Made by a program: the position numbers and the translations under genes
Source of the DNA: Desulfobacteraceae bacterium
GTDB lineage: Bacteria; Desulfobacterota; DSM-4660; Desulfatiglandales; Desulfatiglandaceae
Reading direction: 5' to 3'
Length of the DNA stretch: 13,317 bases
NCBI GenBank assembly: GCA_030589225.1
Contig: JAUUWD010000010.1
Span: 1 to 13,317, forward strand
In this document: piece after piece, positions 605-7,854 of the stretch
How the letters are laid out: every line of letters begins with the position of its first letter
How positions within the stretch are numbered: position 1 is the stretch's first letter
Notes under the pieces: generated by a model
The model's database searches: none
The model's input: the letters and a program-made list of their open reading frames with translations, nothing else
What the model was told of the DNA's origin: nothing

Positions 605-2116
605 ATGTTCCAGATAAAAAAATTTTTTGTGGCCAAAAAAACACCAATTGTATTGCTAAAGACTAAAATGGTAGCCCCTAAAGACAACACAAAATCAGAG
701 GGAAAGCAATTTAGGCTCGTAAAATTTTTTGCCTATGCGAGCTTTTTTGTCCTTATTATAGTCAGTTTCCCCTTCTCAATGGTCATTTCCCAACAGGCCA
801 AGGATATTCTGATGAAGAGTTATGAGAACTATGCCTTACTTCTGGGCGAGAATCTAAACCACCAAGTTTTTCAAAATTTTGTGATACCTGTCAACAGACG
901 ATTTGGTTACATCAGACTGAGGGAAAAAGAGCAATCTGAGTGGATGGATCGGATCGTAAGGAACACGATCCACAGTTTCAATATAGACCTGGTCAACATC
1001 TATGAAACCGATGAGGCCGTGATCGCATACAGCACTGATCCCAGGCTGATAGGCAAGAAAGTAGAAGGAACTTCAGGGTATAAAAGGGCAGTCAAAGGTA
1101 ATCATTCCTCAGGGCTAATATCCGGGGGAGATTATCTTTGGGGGCTTGGTATAGAATGGATAGGGGGTGAAAAGAAACTCAGGACATATATTCCCTTCAG
1201 AGATGTGGACCCCTACACGGGTGACAAGGGATATGTTGGAGGTGTTTTTGAGTTGATCCAGGATCTGACCAAGGAATATGAGTCACTGGTCAAATTTCAG
1301 TATTTTATATTCGGACTTTCTAGTCTAATCATGGGCCTAATATTCGTGGCGCTTCTCCTGATCGTCCACAATGCCGAAGTGATCATAGAGGAGAGGGCTA
1401 AAGAGCAAAGGGAGCTTGAGTCTCAATTGAACCACGCTGAGCGCCTGGCCGCCCTGGGTCAAATGGTTGCCGGTGTTTCCCATGAGATCAGGAATCCCCT
1501 GGGGATCATTCGAAGCACAGCAGAGCTACTGGGCGGAATGCCTGATTCTACTGACGTACAAAAAAAACTTTCGAGCGTTATCACAGAGGAATCAAGCAGA
1601 TTAAACAATATTGTCACGGAATTCCTGGATTTTGCCCGTCCCCAGGAACCCAATTTCCAGGAATGCTACCTTGAAGAAATTATCAACAAAAATCTCCAGT
1701 TCCTCAGCCCCGAACTTGATAAGGAAAACATTTCTGTATATGATAATTTAGATGGCCGGCCTTTAAAACTCAGGGCTGACCCACAACTCCTTTACAGGGC
1801 TTTCCTCAATATTTTTATGAATGCTATTCAAGCCATGGAAAATGGCGGTAGCATGACCGTGGATGTGGCCGAGAAAAAAGACCATTATGTGGTAATTATT
1901 GAGGATACAGGCTGCGGGATTAGACAGGAAAACCTCAGCAAGATCTTTGATCCTTTTTTTAGCACCAAGGATAACGGAACCGGACTTGGGATTTCCATTG
2001 TCAGGAATATTATCGAAGGACATAAGGGTTCCGTATGGATCGAGAGCAAGGTCGGAGATACGCCGGGGCAATATGGCACAGGGACAAAGGTCTTTATAAA
2101 ATTGCCAAAGGGATAA
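605..2116 (+). CDS. Membrane-bound sensor histidine kinase (NtrB/ZraS-like)
   Basis: This 503-residue sensor kinase should autophosphorylate on a histidine and pass the phosphate to the response regulator encoded next. There is a transmembrane segment at about 41-62, a periplasmic sensor of about 168 residues (63-230; ETDEAVIAYSTDPRLIG is reminiscent of Cache/PAS-like sensors) and a second transmembrane segment at about 231-254. A short linker or coiled coil (259-280) leads to the HisKA H-box VSHEIRNPLG with phospho-acceptor His293. The ATPase domain has the N-box (N402, N406), G1 DTGCGI (434-439), F-box DPFF (449-452) and G2 GTGLG (458-462), so it looks catalytically complete. The start is uncertain: neither ATG 605 nor in-frame ATG 668 has a clear ribosome-binding site. 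Whichever is used, the added residues precede the first membrane segment. The ligand cannot be read from the sequence. Confidence 0.93.
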   Translation: MFQIKKFFVAKKTPIVLLKTKMVAPKDNTKSEGKQFRLVKFFAYASFFVLIIVSFPFSMVISQQAKDILMKSYENYALLLGENLNHQVFQNFVIPVNRRFGYIRLREKEQSEWMDRIVRNTIHSFNIDLVNIYETDEAVIAYSTDPRLIGKKVEGTSGYKRAVKGNHSSGLISGGDYLWGLGIEWIGGEKKLRTYIPFRDVDPYTGDKGYVGGVFELIQDLTKEYESLVKFQYFIFGLSSLIMGLIFVALLLIVHNAEVIIEERAKEQRELESQLNHAERLAALGQMVAGVSHEIRNPLGIIRSTAELLGGMPDSTDVQKKLSSVITEESSRLNNIVTEFLDFARPQEPNFQECYLEEIINKNLQFLSPELDKENISVYDNLDGRPLKLRADPQLLYRAFLNIFMNAIQAMENGGSMTVDVAEKKDHYVVIIEDTGCGIRQENLSKIFDPFFSTKDNGTGLGISIVRNIIEGHKGSVWIESKVGDTPGQYGTGTKVFIKLPKG

Positions 2117-2174: not shown

Positions 2175-3539
2175 ATGGAAACGATTCTGATCGTAGACGA
2201 CGAAAAAAATTATCTGTTAGTTCTTGAGGCCTTATTAGGGCCGCAAGGGTATGAAATCATTACAGTCAATAATGCTCATGACGCCCTGCGTTCAGTCCGG
2301 GAAGCAGACCTCGATCTGGTCATTACTGATGTGAAAATGCCGGGCATGAACGGGATGGAACTTCTTGAAAAATGCAAGAAAATTAAGCCCGAGCTTCCGG
2401 TTATTATTATGACCGCCTATGGGAGCATAGAAATGGCTGTGGAGGCCATGAAAAAGAATGCCTACGATTACATTACCAAGCCCTTCCAAAATGAACAGCT
2501 AAAGCTGACTGTTAAAAAGGGCCTTGATAACTACCGTCTTATCAAGCAAAACAAATTGCTGAGCCAGGCCCTTTCAGATCGCTTCCGATATGGGAATATG
2601 GTGGGAAAGAGCAAACCCATACTCAAGATCTATGATATCATTGAAAAGGTGGCTCAATCCAAGGCATCCGTGCTTATCACAGGACCTTCAGGCACTGGAA
2701 AGGAACTCATTGCCAAGGCTATTCACTATGGAGGATCACGAAGGGACCGCCCCTTTGTCTCTATCAATTGTGGTGCTTTGACAGAAACACTTCTTGAGAG
2801 CGAGCTCTTTGGGCATGAGAGAGGCGCCTTTACCGGGGCCGTAGCCTTGAAAAAAGGTCGATTTGAACTTGCAGACAGTGGGACACTCTTCCTGGACGAG
2901 GTAGGTAATATGCCTCCTCCCCTCCAGGTCAAGCTCCTAAGAGTGCTCCAGGAAATGGAATTTGAGAGGGTTGGGGGAACCAGGACTATTAAAGTGGATG
3001 TTCGTCTACTCTCTGCCTCAAACAGGGATATTAAAGACGATGTTGCTGAGGGCATATTTCGGGAAGATCTTTTCTATCGGCTCAATGTAATTCAAATCGA
3101 AGTTCCCCCTTTGCGTGAAAGAGTTGACGATATTCCTCTGCTTGTGAAGCATTTCATTGAAAAATATGTAAGTGATGAAGACAAAGCCAAGATTGAATTA
3201 AGCCCCGAAGTATGGAAAGCCTTTTATGCCTACTCATGGCCTGGCAACGTGAGAGAATTGGAAAATGTTATTGAACGAGCCATGGTCCTTAGTTCAGGAG
3301 GTGTTGTCACCGTTGAGGAATTACCTGAAGAGTTGATTGGGGCAGAAGCCGAATTAGACGTGGATAGGTTTATTCCTCCCGATGTGCCCCTGCCGACAGC
3401 ACTGGAGCGAATTGAGGAAAAGCTAATAAGAAGGGCCCTGAATCAGTGTAATAATGTTCAGGCCCATGCAGCCGAAATGTTAGGAATCACAAAAAGCTTG
3501 ATACAGCACAAAATGAAAAAGTACAACATCGCGGTATAG
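2175..3539 (+). CDS. Sigma-54-dependent NtrC-family response regulator
   Basis: This 454-residue enhancer-binding activator would remodel sigma-54 RNA polymerase once phosphorylated by the upstream kinase. The receiver domain (1-120) has acidic D8/D9, phospho-acceptor D52 (TDVKMPGMNG), T80 and K102. The AAA+ domain (about 140-385) has Walker A GPSGTGKE (170-177), an intact sigma-54-contacting GAFTGA loop (217-222), Walker B TLFLDE (237-242) and the conserved REDLFYRLNV segment (296-305). A Fis-type helix-turn-helix lies at about 426-449 (AAEMLGITKSLIQHKMKKY). The length is typical and all key residues are present. The start has a good ribosome-binding site (AGGAG at 2161-2165). It sits 58 nt after the kinase and is presumably co-transcribed. 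A palindrome and a sigma-54 promoter lie 80-210 bp downstream of its stop, making it the obvious candidate to activate that promoter; this is inferred. Confidence 0.96.
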   Translation: METILIVDDEKNYLLVLEALLGPQGYEIITVNNAHDALRSVREADLDLVITDVKMPGMNGMELLEKCKKIKPELPVIIMTAYGSIEMAVEAMKKNAYDYITKPFQNEQLKLTVKKGLDNYRLIKQNKLLSQALSDRFRYGNMVGKSKPILKIYDIIEKVAQSKASVLITGPSGTGKELIAKAIHYGGSRRDRPFVSINCGALTETLLESELFGHERGAFTGAVALKKGRFELADSGTLFLDEVGNMPPPLQVKLLRVLQEMEFERVGGTRTIKVDVRLLSASNRDIKDDVAEGIFREDLFYRLNVIQIEVPPLRERVDDIPLLVKHFIEKYVSDEDKAKIELSPEVWKAFYAYSWPGNVRELENVIERAMVLSSGGVVTVEELPEELIGAEAELDVDRFIPPDVPLPTALERIEEKLIRRALNQCNNVQAHAAEMLGITKSLIQHKMKKYNIAV

Positions 3540-3618
3540 AGGTAAAAAATATTGTATCCCTATTTTATCAATAAATTAAATATGATATCTGACGTGGCTC
3601 CTAACCTGGCATTTTTTG

Positions 3619-3634
3619 GTACAAAATTTTGTAC
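3619..3634. promoter_or_regulatory. Perfect 16-bp palindrome, candidate activator (UAS) site
   Basis: GTACAAAATTTTGTAC is a perfect palindrome lying in non-coding DNA 80 bp after the regulator gene. Its centre is about 131 bp upstream of the start predicted from the sigma-54 promoter at 3732-3747. That is within the usual range for enhancer sites of NtrC-type activators. Only one perfect copy is seen. That the adjacent regulator binds it is inference. Confidence 0.45.
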
Positions 3635-3698
3635 TTTTCATGCCCAGAAATTAAAAACTGAAAAAGCAAAGCCCAAAACAATATCTCAACAAAACAAA

Positions 3699-3715
3699 CA
3701 GTTACATACTAACTG
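3699..3715. promoter_or_regulatory. Dyad CAGTTA-N5-TAACTG near the sigma-54 promoter
   Basis: This perfect 6-5-6 inverted repeat (spacer CATAC) is centred at 3707, about 51 bp upstream of the predicted start. It does not resemble the 3619 palindrome, so it may be the site of a second regulator or a chance dyad in AT-rich DNA. Confidence 0.28.
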
Positions 3716-3731
3716 CGCGCAAGATCCATTT

Positions 3732-3747
3732 TGGCAAACAACTTGCA
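3732..3747 (+). promoter_or_regulatory. Sigma-54 (-24/-12) promoter
   Basis: TGGCAAACAACTTGCA matches the sigma-54 consensus TGGCACG-N4-TTGCA except at the two positions after TGGCA. The invariant GG (3733-3734) and GC (3745-3746) are separated by exactly 10 bp. The predicted start is 12 nt past the -12 C, at about 3758, within a GGG. No protein-coding start follows: a hairpin and then an intrinsic terminator come within about 63 nt. Confidence 0.62.
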
Positions 3748-3757
3748 ATAAAAATCG

Positions 3758-3820
3758 GGAAAGTAATTACTCTTTCCTCCTAAGAGCACCAGCCGCCTAT
3801 TTGAGCGGCTGGTTTTTTTT
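3758..3820 (+). ncRNA. Candidate sigma-54-dependent small RNA, about 63 nt
   Basis: From the predicted start, the transcript would begin GGAAAGUAAUUACUCUUUCC, which folds into a 6-bp stem (3758-3763 with 3772-3777, 8-nt loop). A single-stranded linker, UCCUAAGAGCA (3778-3788), follows, then a 9-bp terminator stem and eight U. This is the compact layout of known trans-acting small RNAs: 5' hairpin, open seed, Rho-independent terminator with a U tail. The seed region contains CCUCCUA, complementary to strong Shine-Dalgarno sequences. The sigma-54 promoter, its position next to a sigma-54 activator gene and the palindrome upstream all point the same way. The main alternative is that the terminator ends the kinase/regulator mRNA and that the 5' hairpin, read on the minus strand, helps terminate era. 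I know of no named family that matches. Confidence 0.45.
3789..3820 (+). terminator. Strong intrinsic terminator, plus strand
   Basis: ACCAGCCGC (3788-3796) pairs perfectly with GCGGCTGGT (3804-3812) around an 8-nt loop. The stem is followed by an uninterrupted run of eight T (to 3820). There is no matching A-run upstream, so it works in the plus direction only. It would end both the candidate small RNA and any read-through from the regulator gene before the convergent era gene (stop at 3825). Confidence 0.85.
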
Positions 3821-3824
3821 GGCC

Positions 3825-4709
3825 CTAATAACCTAAGCGCCTAAGTGCCCGTGTATCCCTGGTCCAGTTCTTTTCCACTCTCACTATCAGATCCAAATAT
3901 ATCCGCACCCCGAACATTTTCTCCAGCTCCAGCCTCGCTGAGCGACCGATTGCCTTGATCATTCGCCCCCTTTTTCCAATGAGTACCGCCTTCTGGGATT
4001 CTCTTTCCACATGAATACGCGCCGCAATGGCAAGAAGATTTTTCGCGGGTATCTCTTCCATTTTGTCCACTGAGACCGCTGATGAATAGGGCAGCTCCTT
4101 GCTTGTGTGAGAATATATTTTTTCCCGAATGATTTCAGATACCAGGGCAACCTCTGACTGATCTGTTTTCATATCAAGGGGGAAAAACTGAGGACCCGGC
4201 CTTAAACTCTCTTTTAGCCTGTCAAGAAGCCTGTCCAGGCCATCCCCCTTTATGGCAGAAACAGGAATAATGTCCTCAAAATCATATACTTGCCGGTAAT
4301 GGTCAATAATTGGCAACAGGTGCTCTTTTGCCATCATATCGATTTTATTAATGACCAGGATACAAGGTTTTCTCATTCTTTTAAGGTTTCCCACGATGGA
4401 TGAAATTTTGGGGTCATTGGGATGGCAGATTTCGATCATTAACAGTACCATGTCCACTTCACGACAGGCTGCACGCGCGGATGCCACCATGCTTTCGTGA
4501 AGGGCTGACTTGGTGTTGTGGATGCCCGGGGTATCCATAAATATAATTTGCAACCCCTCTCCGTGGTAAATGCCGAGGATGCGATTTCGTGTTGTTTGCG
4601 GCTTGGGGGACACGATGGCCAATTTCGTTCTTAGAATATGGTTTAAGAGGGTGGACTTGCCCACGTTGGGCGGGCCTATGATGCCTATGAAACCAGATAA
4701 AAAAGTCAT
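3825..4709 (-). CDS. era: GTPase Era, 30S ribosomal subunit assembly
   Basis: Era is an essential-type GTPase that binds the 3' end of 16S rRNA and helps 30S maturation. The protein has 294 residues, close to the usual ~300. The G domain has G1 GPPNVGKS (12-19), G2 TTR (39-41), G3 DTPG (59-62), G4 NKID (121-124) and G5 SA (151-152). The C-terminal KH domain has the RNA-binding GKRG loop (245-248), and the protein ends in the usual W-x8-LRRLGY tail. The ATG overlaps the upstream radical SAM stop in an ATGA tetranucleotide, so translation is probably coupled. It is the last gene of the rnc operon. On the minus strand, the GGAAAG/CTTTCC hairpin (3758-3777) followed by CGATTTTTATT could serve as a weak terminator. 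Confidence 0.97.
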   Translation of the reverse strand: MTFLSGFIGIIGPPNVGKSTLLNHILRTKLAIVSPKPQTTRNRILGIYHGEGLQIIFMDTPGIHNTKSALHESMVASARAACREVDMVLLMIEICHPNDPKISSIVGNLKRMRKPCILVINKIDMMAKEHLLPIIDHYRQVYDFEDIIPVSAIKGDGLDRLLDRLKESLRPGPQFFPLDMKTDQSEVALVSEIIREKIYSHTSKELPYSSAVSVDKMEEIPAKNLLAIAARIHVERESQKAVLIGKRGRMIKAIGRSARLELEKMFGVRIYLDLIVRVEKNWTRDTRALRRLGY

Positions 4710-6657: not shown

Positions 6658-7854
6658 ATGCGGCGCAATAAGAAGCCCAAGAAGAAGAAAACTGATCATC
6701 CATCCCTGCTGAAGTCAGAGGAAACCCTTGTCACTTCCCTCCTTGAAGATTTCAAAAATGTCGACCCCGCAGAGATTGTGGCCAGGATTCCCCACTCGCA
6801 CCTTGCCGGAATCTTTTTAGAGCGTTTACCCCTCGATAATGAGTTTCCTGTCCCGTTGCTGTTAGCGCTCGATGAGGCTTTCAAGGATAAAAAGGTCCAT
6901 AAGCTGGTTAAACGGATCCTCTTCAGGCTCAAGCAAAAAGGAGTTCCCATTGATGAGAGTTTCCCCCAAAGGGCGAGTCATGATACGATCTTGACACAAA
7001 CTCAAAAGGAAGAGCCTGTTGCCTATATTGGACCTATTGCAGGCACAATTGGTTCCAGGGCAGTCCTTATCGTATTGCAAAGTACTGTAAAAGGCTATCA
7101 AGCTGGAATAGGTCTTGTTTCGGAGGCAGAGGGAATTCTTCAGTTTCTCTACGGTCCCTTCAGTAAAAAACGAATAAAGGAAATCAAAGGCTCCCTTTCA
7201 CAAGAGGCCGGACCACTTGTGGAAACATCTTTGCCCCATGCTGCCACTATTCTCGAGATCGCATACCGGCGTCATATGGAACTGCATTCTGACGTCCCCT
7301 CACAATATCCTGAGCTTAGGCCACGGTTATTGGAAAACGTTACCATACTCGATCGCCCGATTATCTATGACTTTGTGTCGGAGATCCCTGGTGATGGCAC
7401 ATTGACGGATAGTCAACTTGGGGAATTGTTCGCCCACAATTTAATGGAATCATGGCTCATTGACTTTGAAGACCTAAAGCCTTTTATGGAAGATATCCTA
7501 AAGGTGGAGGGCAGCCCAATCGTTCTTTCGGACGCACAAAAGGCCGATCAGGTCAGGCAGATAAAAGATAAAAGTATAGAGGAACTATTTCCGGGACCCA
7601 GGAGAGCCCTACTGAAGCATAATTTAGAGGAAATGGCCTACTTTTTTTTCAAATTGGACCAGGATGAATATTCCAGGATGGCCCTGACTGCGGCCCGAAA
7701 CCTGGACGAGGAAGACACCATCTTAAGGAAAAACATGGTAGTTGAGTTTCTGCTGGAGCGAAGTATGCAGTATTACATGGACTTGGCGGGGAAAGAGGGT
7801 GCGGAAGATGAAACCTTGGAACCTGATGATTCCCCCCGTATTATATTGCCATAA
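6658..7854 (+). CDS. Conserved-looking protein of unknown function, cysteine-free
   Basis: I do not recognise this 398-residue protein. It begins with a strongly basic stretch (RRNKKPKKKKT, 2-12) and ends in an acidic tail (EGAEDETLEPDD, about 380-391). There is no signal peptide, membrane segment, nucleotide-binding motif or cysteine. Much of it reads as alternating amphipathic helices (for example LLEDFKNVDPAEIVARI near 27-43 and the C-terminal third), with a more beta-like patch at VAYIGPIAGTIGSRAVLIVL (about 120-139). The basic start would suit binding to RNA, DNA or ribosomes, but that is only a guess. Codon use and length argue for a real gene. The ATG at 6658 has purine-rich GAGGGA and AGGCGG upstream. 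It is transcribed away from the rnc operon and is monocistronic, with a repeat-rich gap after it. Confidence 0.82.
   Translation: MRRNKKPKKKKTDHPSLLKSEETLVTSLLEDFKNVDPAEIVARIPHSHLAGIFLERLPLDNEFPVPLLLALDEAFKDKKVHKLVKRILFRLKQKGVPIDESFPQRASHDTILTQTQKEEPVAYIGPIAGTIGSRAVLIVLQSTVKGYQAGIGLVSEAEGILQFLYGPFSKKRIKEIKGSLSQEAGPLVETSLPHAATILEIAYRRHMELHSDVPSQYPELRPRLLENVTILDRPIIYDFVSEIPGDGTLTDSQLGELFAHNLMESWLIDFEDLKPFMEDILKVEGSPIVLSDAQKADQVRQIKDKSIEELFPGPRRALLKHNLEEMAYFFFKLDQDEYSRMALTAARNLDEEDTILRKNMVVEFLLERSMQYYMDLAGKEGAEDETLEPDDSPRIILP

Follow-up and report, generated by a model that had tools for sequence, protein, structure and literature searches.

Gene context and features of the locus

The window, meaning the whole stretch of 13,317 nucleotides analysed here, is one contig (C149) of a 2.0-Mb assembly with a completeness of 65.7%. 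It carries a kinase gene and a regulator gene, followed by a gap, the convergent era gene, a radical-SAM gene and rnc. The features relevant to the present analysis are listed below, with their coordinates in the window.

605..2116, + strand: sensor histidine kinase (HisKA/HATPase_c, from Pfam domains)
2175..3539, + strand: NtrC-type response regulator (receiver, sigma-54 AAA+ and Fis-type HTH with segment GITKSLIQHKMKKY)
3542..3557, no strand: first enhancer palindrome GTAAAAAATATTGTAT, 13 of 16 positions matching GTACAAAATTTTGTAC
3619..3634, no strand: second enhancer palindrome GTACAAAATTTTGTAC, 77 bp past the first
3691..3704, + strand: conserved AAAACAnnnAGTTA block (near-invariant alignment columns, gap positions 152–164), which we take to be a possible IHF site
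3732..3747, + strand: sigma-54 −24/−12 box TGGCAAACAACTTGCA (GG-N10-GC)
3758..3820, + strand: predicted small RNA, with the start placed by its spacing to the −12 GC and the end by the U run
3769..3783, + strand: conserved anti-Shine–Dalgarno (anti-SD) core ACTCTTTCCTCCTAA, from the alignment of related loci
3788..3820, + strand: intrinsic terminator, a 9-bp stem followed by T8
3825..4709, − strand: era GTPase, a convergent neighbour given for context and outside the proposed mechanism

By their Pfam domains, the kinase and the regulator make up a standard sigma-54 two-component system. In NCBIfam the pair resembles AtoS/ZraS and AtoC/ZraR while staying below the cut-off of all families listed (best 25 of 65 and of 83). 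The N-terminal half of the kinase is a predicted alpha/beta sensor domain flanked by two long predicted helices; the best fold match of the whole structure model (mean pLDDT 71) is the cytoplasmic part of ZraS, and the matches listed are kinase cores. The closest named relative is Desulfobacteraceae bacterium 4484_190.2, with a regulator 98% identical. Elsewhere in the window, positions 6658–7854 encode a 398-residue protein without any Pfam match.

The small RNA gene

An earlier note, made from the sequence of the window alone, had proposed a sigma-54-dependent small RNA beside the gene of its activator, with a box at 3732–3747 in exact GG-N10-GC spacing. The box is present as described, but the chance expectation of 0.03 given for it under equal base use rises to 0.053 per window (both strands) in a first-order Markov model, against one occurrence of TGGCA-N6-TTGCA. 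The looser form TGGCR-N6-YTGC is likewise found once with 0.39 expected, so that the box by itself is just moderately unlikely. What makes the observation firm is that the order of box, core and hairpin is conserved across loci.

This conservation was established on relatives of the regulator taken from 61 genomes (30 loci) and from a collection of named genomes (80 loci), with 500–600 nt read past the stop codon; the loci with a gap of at least 250 nt give 84 non-redundant loci. A regular-expression search finds the box, then the core, then a hairpin with a run of at least three T in 63 of them, at a box-to-core distance of 18–40 nt (median 29). The 21 misses are L086, which has the same arrangement with the variant core ACTTCTTCCTCCTAA and is counted apart from the 63, and 20 loci with a regulator identity of 55–62% that lack the unit (records titled Desulfobacca, Syntrophobacter and Deltaproteobacteria, among others); the unit is present in L103 and L104 despite a regulator identity of 59–60%. 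In an alignment of 50 sequences, 19 columns are invariant: 18 within the box (TGGCA, TTGC) or the core, one in the terminator and none in the spacer.

The core of the RNA is ACUCUUUCCUCCUAA, with the consensus CUCUUUYCUCCU. The terminator, a stem of ACCAGCCGC and GCGGCTGGT in which 3788–3796 pair with 3805–3813, followed by T8 at 3813–3820, is as the earlier note gave it and is kept in relatives, where the hairpin folds at −8 kcal/mol or below in all 63 loci (median −18.3). A 5′ hairpin, also part of that description, can be drawn in the window (GGGAAAG...CTTTCC at about 3758–3778). The note had named loss of box and hairpin in relatives that keep the regulator as a ground for refutation. In such relatives the box and the terminator are retained, but this hairpin is not conserved, the 5′ region folding at −2 kcal/mol or below in only 24 of 63 loci and with differing pairings, and it was discarded as a defining feature. 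By these folds, what is conserved in the RNA is a leader carrying an anti-SD core, followed by the terminator, rather than two hairpins. Part of the core is covered by a local hairpin in the window and in its 98% relative (mean openness 0.43, versus 0.71 overall). The predicted length is 56–83 nt (median 70), and about 63–65 nt in the window. The core is fully doubled in the RNA leader of L048 and doubled in part in L069.

A covariance model (R1) was built from 50 of the 63 loci; the omitted ones include L071 and L081, with core CUUUUUCCUCCU. A search of the window against Rfam gives no family at gathering score, the best being Hrs13 with 21.7 of 52 bits, and no earlier description of this RNA was found in the open-access library searched. 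The palindromes and the core are conserved features that the earlier note did not contain. Comparative data support its central proposal, a probable sigma-54-dependent small RNA adjoining its own activator, and a real, conserved small RNA gene under the control of the adjoining regulator is very probably present.

Enhancers and the specificity of the regulator

Palindromes like GTACAAAATTTTGTAC typically lie 3 and 80 nt past the regulator stop codon, with a third at +157 in four loci (L033, L040, L043 and L054). The two nearest to the box are spaced by 77 bp in 33 of 63 loci and by 76–79 bp in 59 of 63, the loci outside this range being L022, L052, L103 and L104; the distance from the nearer one down to the box is 104–109 bp in 57 of the 63. 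Those of the window are 105 and 182 bp upstream of the sigma-54 box, which is a looping distance, and are predicted activator sites.

A search of the 61 genomes for the exact enhancer pattern GTACAANATNTTGTAC gives 34 sites, in 28 of them, versus 0 for the reversed control, and 33 of the 34 sites are at the RNA gene (sites in G010, G055 and G026 were inspected, the others matched by coordinates to covariance-model hits). The exception is in G026:C255, where positions 3020–3035 of L238 (G026:C255:8519) form the only perfect palindrome away from an RNA gene; the surrounding 6 kb hold no sigma-54 box with core. For the window palindrome GTACAAAATTTTGTAC, there is no second exact-pattern site in this incomplete genome. 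Near-exclusive placement of the enhancers supports the earlier suggestion of a self-contained signalling module, and the regulator looks dedicated to the RNA, given that 33 of 34 enhancers are there and that enhancer and recognition helix switch together. We infer a sole target rather than observe it, since the strict pattern would miss weak sites.

Two types of enhancers are found, exemplified by GTACAAAATTTTGTAC and GTTAAAAAATTTTAAC. GTTA...TAAC palindromes pair with the recognition segment SRHVMHYK or similar (MHYK type), and GTAC palindromes with TKSLIQHK or similar (QHK type). Enhancer type and recognition helix agree in 59 of 59 scored loci, out of 63 (L059, L078, L103 and L104 unscored), where L033 and L081 have GTGC on one side and are scored as GTAC, and L069 has KHK instead of QHK. 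Other types occur in more distant relatives: GTTCAAAATTTTGAAC goes with a GKSGLNQK segment in G119 and G457. On a regulator tree that leaves out the last 60 residues, both traits need six changes, at least four of them forced by starred branches, and the sister pairs L052/L073 and L062/L074 differ in both enhancer and helix. A sign test on four independent pairs gives p 0.125, too few pairs for significance alone. As the enhancers directly follow the end of the gene that codes for the HTH, one recombination can carry both. Such linked exchange as one piece may weaken the case for independent co-evolution of regulator and enhancers, and the linkage suggests a reason for the gene order.

Distribution across genomes

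Of the 85 genomes of the order, 74 give an R1 match to the unit; four of them (G010, G011, G022 and G037) have two copies and the other 70 a single one. Within the set of 61 genomes, the RNA is present in all 54 that have a close regulator ortholog (in G050 as just a cut piece) and in two of the seven that have none, namely G032, where the regulator is cut by the contig end, and G057. Tandem second RNA genes are seen in L236 (G010:C88; 2212 and 2775), with its own sigma-54 box and palindrome, and in L237 (G022:C49; 2307 and 2759), with its own sigma-54 box. In L230 (G055:C141) the RNA gene remains beside era with the regulator gene on a different contig, and in L232 (G057:C282) it remains beside era with no regulator found.

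A draw of 395 genomes from the phylum gives 61 R1 matches, of which 44 are outside the order (E-values 3e-9 to 0.01). Because R1 includes the promoter and the terminator, weak hits may be other sigma-54 RNAs. The 22 genomes searched among these 44 all have a regulator ortholog (51–62% identity), which the RNA adjoins in seven (G089, G160, G194, G093, G130, G119 and G457) and does not in 15. In families f94 and f42 (L314, L317, L318, L321, L323, L324 and L327), a core CUCUUUCCUCCUC accompanies a sigma-54 box, mostly with a similar terminator stem around CTAACCGG...CCGGTTAG that is absent in L314; these RNAs, which may be of the same family, do not adjoin the regulator, whose DNA-binding end differs there, the regulator match ending near residue 390–410. 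Exact 12-mer matches at genes in 20 genomes of f94, f42 and others amount to nine entries in six genomes: HU twice, a lipoprotein, a transaldolase and one barrel-like protein (assigned by eye), along with two other frames and the opposite strand of the RNA gene itself. Outside the order, the RNA is often away from the regulator and exact matches are mostly not porins.

Predicted porin targets

The reverse complement of the core and its flank is UUUAGGAGGAAAGAGUAAUG, that is, a Shine–Dalgarno sequence (SD) with a start codon, and the core is complementary over 12–20 nt to the ribosome-binding sites of outer-membrane barrel genes. Targets were searched in 55 genomes as GGAGRAAAGAG at most 8 nt before ATG (L134 and L118, which stem from the 13-mer search described below, being excluded from the counts). 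Among the matches listed, which extend to all but 13 of these genomes, 20 of the 27 open reading frames (ORFs) of at least 40 aa that start with GGAGRAAAGAGT..ATG encode apparent outer-membrane barrels, in at least 17 of the 55 genomes, as against 2 of the 18 remaining GGAGRAAAGAG..ATG genes (Fisher p 4.6e-5). A stricter rule, requiring a signal peptide and a C-terminal aromatic residue and applied by a crude script to the matches listed, gives 17 of 27 versus 3 of 18 (p 0.0027). The 27 ORFs are 26 plus L266 (64 aa, not a barrel), and the 20 barrels include three whose genes are cut or broken; L251, L253 and L261 have no ORF of at least 40 aa from the site, and G010:C81 is omitted. The comparison frames are one per genome, out of more listed; with unequal rules (23 comparison frames, five of them below 40 aa) the p-values would be 1.7e-6 and 3.5e-4, and the like-for-like values are used instead. 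By eye, the seven non-barrel exact matches are GroEL, a CstA-like and an RnfE-like protein, a lipoprotein, two metallo-hydrolases and a small HTH protein. The start of the GroEL-like gene, in L256 (G028:C365), has the exact match GGAGGAAAGAGTATG, and chaperone genes may also be targets. Three barrel genes with an exact match are found in G010.

The predicted target in the genome of the window (G000:C24:525-540, GGAGGAAAGAGTTATG) is perfectly complementary over 15 nt, UUAGGAGGAAAGAGU; this porin gene is cut by the contig end and falls below the Pfam cut-off. Four of ten tested barrels are above that cut-off (three Porin_4, one OprB), and barrel homologs bear porin names. L258 has a KdgM match below cut-off, and its AlphaFold2 model (pLDDT 83.5, pTM 0.78) matches AlgE, MOMP and OprD-type barrels; some of its homologs carry Porin_4, and the barrel families may be distant kin. 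A search of solved structures with one porin found nothing.

Porins were also collected independently of the motif, by protein similarity (18 places, 17 genes, 16 with an N-terminus). With respect to the exact 12-mer GGAGGAAAGAGT, eight of these 16 match exactly, four have one change, one has two and three have no match; in three of the four with one change, the changed base could still form a G-U pair with the common core. The predicted porin duplex is stronger than all 308 control starts in 14 of 20 cases, most of the 20 having been picked by motif, and the weakest one (G039) is equalled by eight controls. The controls are other gene starts with an SD and comprise no porin loci, many being orthologs of the same neighbours. 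In a set of 16 genomes with one porin each, RNA and porin from the same genome fit better than swapped combinations (40 of 20000 permutations as low); this result is driven by G019, G060 and G016, some genomes of the set are close kin, and G033 was omitted as a near-copy of G016. G016 and G033 show a clear compensatory change: the RNA reads UCACUC and the porin GAGTGA, where many others have UUACUC and GAGTAA. The 13-mer AGGAGRAAAGAGT occurs at 110 places in the 61 genomes, 46 of them at the RNA gene. The remaining 64 fall short of the 81 counted for the reversed control, so that complementarity which ignores the start codon is not enriched; the porin signal appears just when the start codon and an extra T are required. 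Taken together, control of porin translation by base pairing is quite probable, if a little less so on like-for-like counting.

RNA chaperones and known systems

Hfq (PF17209) was found in none of 61 genomes, 30 of them at least 90% complete, by a search positive for five of 14 controls (E. coli, B. subtilis, Caulobacter, Thermotoga and Methanocaldococcus). ProQ (PF04352) was found in none of 41 genomes, 25 of them at least 90% complete, where one control of 14, E. coli, is positive. Many of the genomes in these chaperone searches are incomplete.

RybB and MicA are Hfq-dependent, unlike the present case, where Hfq was not found in the 61 genomes. In Vibrio, the Qrr RNAs are driven by the sigma-54 activator LuxO and exist as several Hfq-dependent copies with quorum-sensing targets. 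The earlier note had drawn a parallel with Qrr, which holds for an activator of this kind driving a small RNA and is otherwise loose; GlmY with QseF/GlrR and CrcZ with CbrB are nearer. crcZ adjoins cbrB, and CrcZ acts on Hfq/Crc and has repeated CA-rich Hfq/Crc-binding motifs, unlike the RNA described here, which by eye has one pyrimidine base-pairing core (doubled in L048) and no CA-rich repeats, and which, reaching the gathering score of no Rfam family, is matched to neither the GlmY/GlmZ nor the CrcZ family.

GlmY with QseEF/GlrKR in Enterobacterales resembles the present unit in that a small RNA gene stands beside its own two-component regulator genes, with regulator sites in the RNA promoter, but glmY lies before and is co-transcribed with qseEGF and has other targets (PMC8745638). 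In Pseudomonas, the sigma-54 activator CbrB of CbrAB drives CrcZ/CrcY, as proposed here, from promoters with upstream sites and IHF, but CbrB has 61 ChIP-Seq targets and non-palindromic sites, in contrast to the palindromes and the near-single enhancer locus found here (PMC6296734). RybB and MicA of Salmonella lower omp mRNAs, comparable with the predicted complementarity to omp starts, but are driven by sigma-E instead of a sigma-54 box with a two-component system, and differ in core (PMC1804206). NfeR1/alpha-r14 of rhizobia shares a conserved unpaired anti-SD motif, and its Hfq-independence and occlusion of ribosome-binding sites are counted as likenesses; it has three hairpins each with CCUCCUCCC in 123 nt, versus one core and one conserved terminator hairpin, and is LsrB-activated and NtrC-repressed with ABC-transporter and ntrB targets, unlike here (PMC10746234). 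Each of GlmY, CrcZ, RybB/MicA and NfeR1 shares one aspect and, on the basis of the papers cited, none combines core, regulator and targets. The RNA most likely belongs to none of these systems, being GlmY/CrcZ-like in activation, MicA/RybB-like in its predicted targets and NfeR1-like in its anti-SD seed.

Alternative readings

The sigma-54 RNA could be real and its core a general anti-SD sequence that damps many strongly initiated mRNAs, among which porins just have the strongest ribosome-binding sites. CCUCC is indeed the anti-SD core, some exact matches are non-porin (e.g. GroEL) and porin 5′ regions are partly of common descent. Yet the match extends past the SD in both directions (UUUA upstream, AAAGAGUnAUG downstream), few controls are as strong (none for 14 of 20 porins, eight at most) and the match shifts along with the RNA in some lineages (the UCACUC–GAGTGA change of G016/G033, and G019), which makes this reading unlikely. 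Activation of the targets, or sponging of another regulator, is very unlikely given that the predicted pairing covers both the SD and the start codon. Pairing of that kind normally blocks initiation. It does so for NfeR1 (PMC10746234), to be set against GlmY, the nearest enteric arrangement, which activates cheA (PMC8745638).

It is most improbable that there is no separate gene, with the terminator ending the kinase–regulator mRNA and the box being a chance match: the terminator does lie past the regulator and the looser box has a chance expectation of 0.39 in the window, but box, enhancer spacing and core are conserved where most of the intervening sequence is not, and tandem or detached copies (e.g. 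in G010, G022, G055 and G057) keep box, core and terminator. An equally slight chance attaches to the core serving as SD for a small protein encoded on the opposite strand, or being part of a small plus-strand frame. The reverse complement of the core is AGGAGGAAAGAGT, and a minus-strand start codon lies at most 11 nt away in 36 of 63 loci, 16 of the 63 having at least 20 codons; against this, 27 loci have no such start, a plus-strand frame of at least 20 codons in the 5′ part occurs in just seven of 63, and the promoter and the U run define the plus strand. The small-protein readings were rejected, the frames not being conserved.

Proposed circuit and its significance

The preferred reading, a two-component system whose main direct output is a small RNA blocking porin translation, is given a probability of roughly 0.77. 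Sequence comparison supports the predicted gene unit, promoter, enhancers, regulator–enhancer match, core and porin-start complementarity. For the phosphorylation, transcription, looping, repression and signal, we infer the following course. The kinase would sense an envelope or periplasmic signal, a cue made plausible by its ZraS-like core and by the targets, and would phosphorylate the regulator, which would bind the two or three palindromes directly past its own gene, about 77 bp apart. By DNA looping, the bound regulator would activate sigma-54 RNA polymerase at 3732–3747, to yield a short terminator-ended RNA of about 63 nt. Translation of outer-membrane barrel genes would be blocked by pairing of the RNA core ACUCUUUCCUCCUAA with their ribosome-binding sites (UUUAGGAGGAAAGAGUnAUG), the pairing proceeding without Hfq or ProQ.

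Somewhat better than an even chance is given to a wider statement, namely that this phosphorelay has essentially one direct output, an Hfq- and ProQ-free porin-silencing small RNA, that it arose independently in Thermodesulfobacteriota (Desulfobacterota) as an equivalent of the sigma-E/MicA/RybB envelope circuit, and that recognition helix and enhancers are exchangeable as a cassette. Exchange of helix and enhancers as one cassette would be the reason why the small RNA gene stays beside the regulator.

If true, the finding would provide a sulfate-reducer-like order, known mostly from metagenomes, with a small RNA for which activator, enhancer, core and target class are predicted, and would mean that control of porins by a small RNA can arise with sigma-54 replacing sigma-E and without Hfq or ProQ. 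It would also make testable what chaperone-free base-pairing small RNAs need, and how the specificities of a regulator and its enhancers change together.
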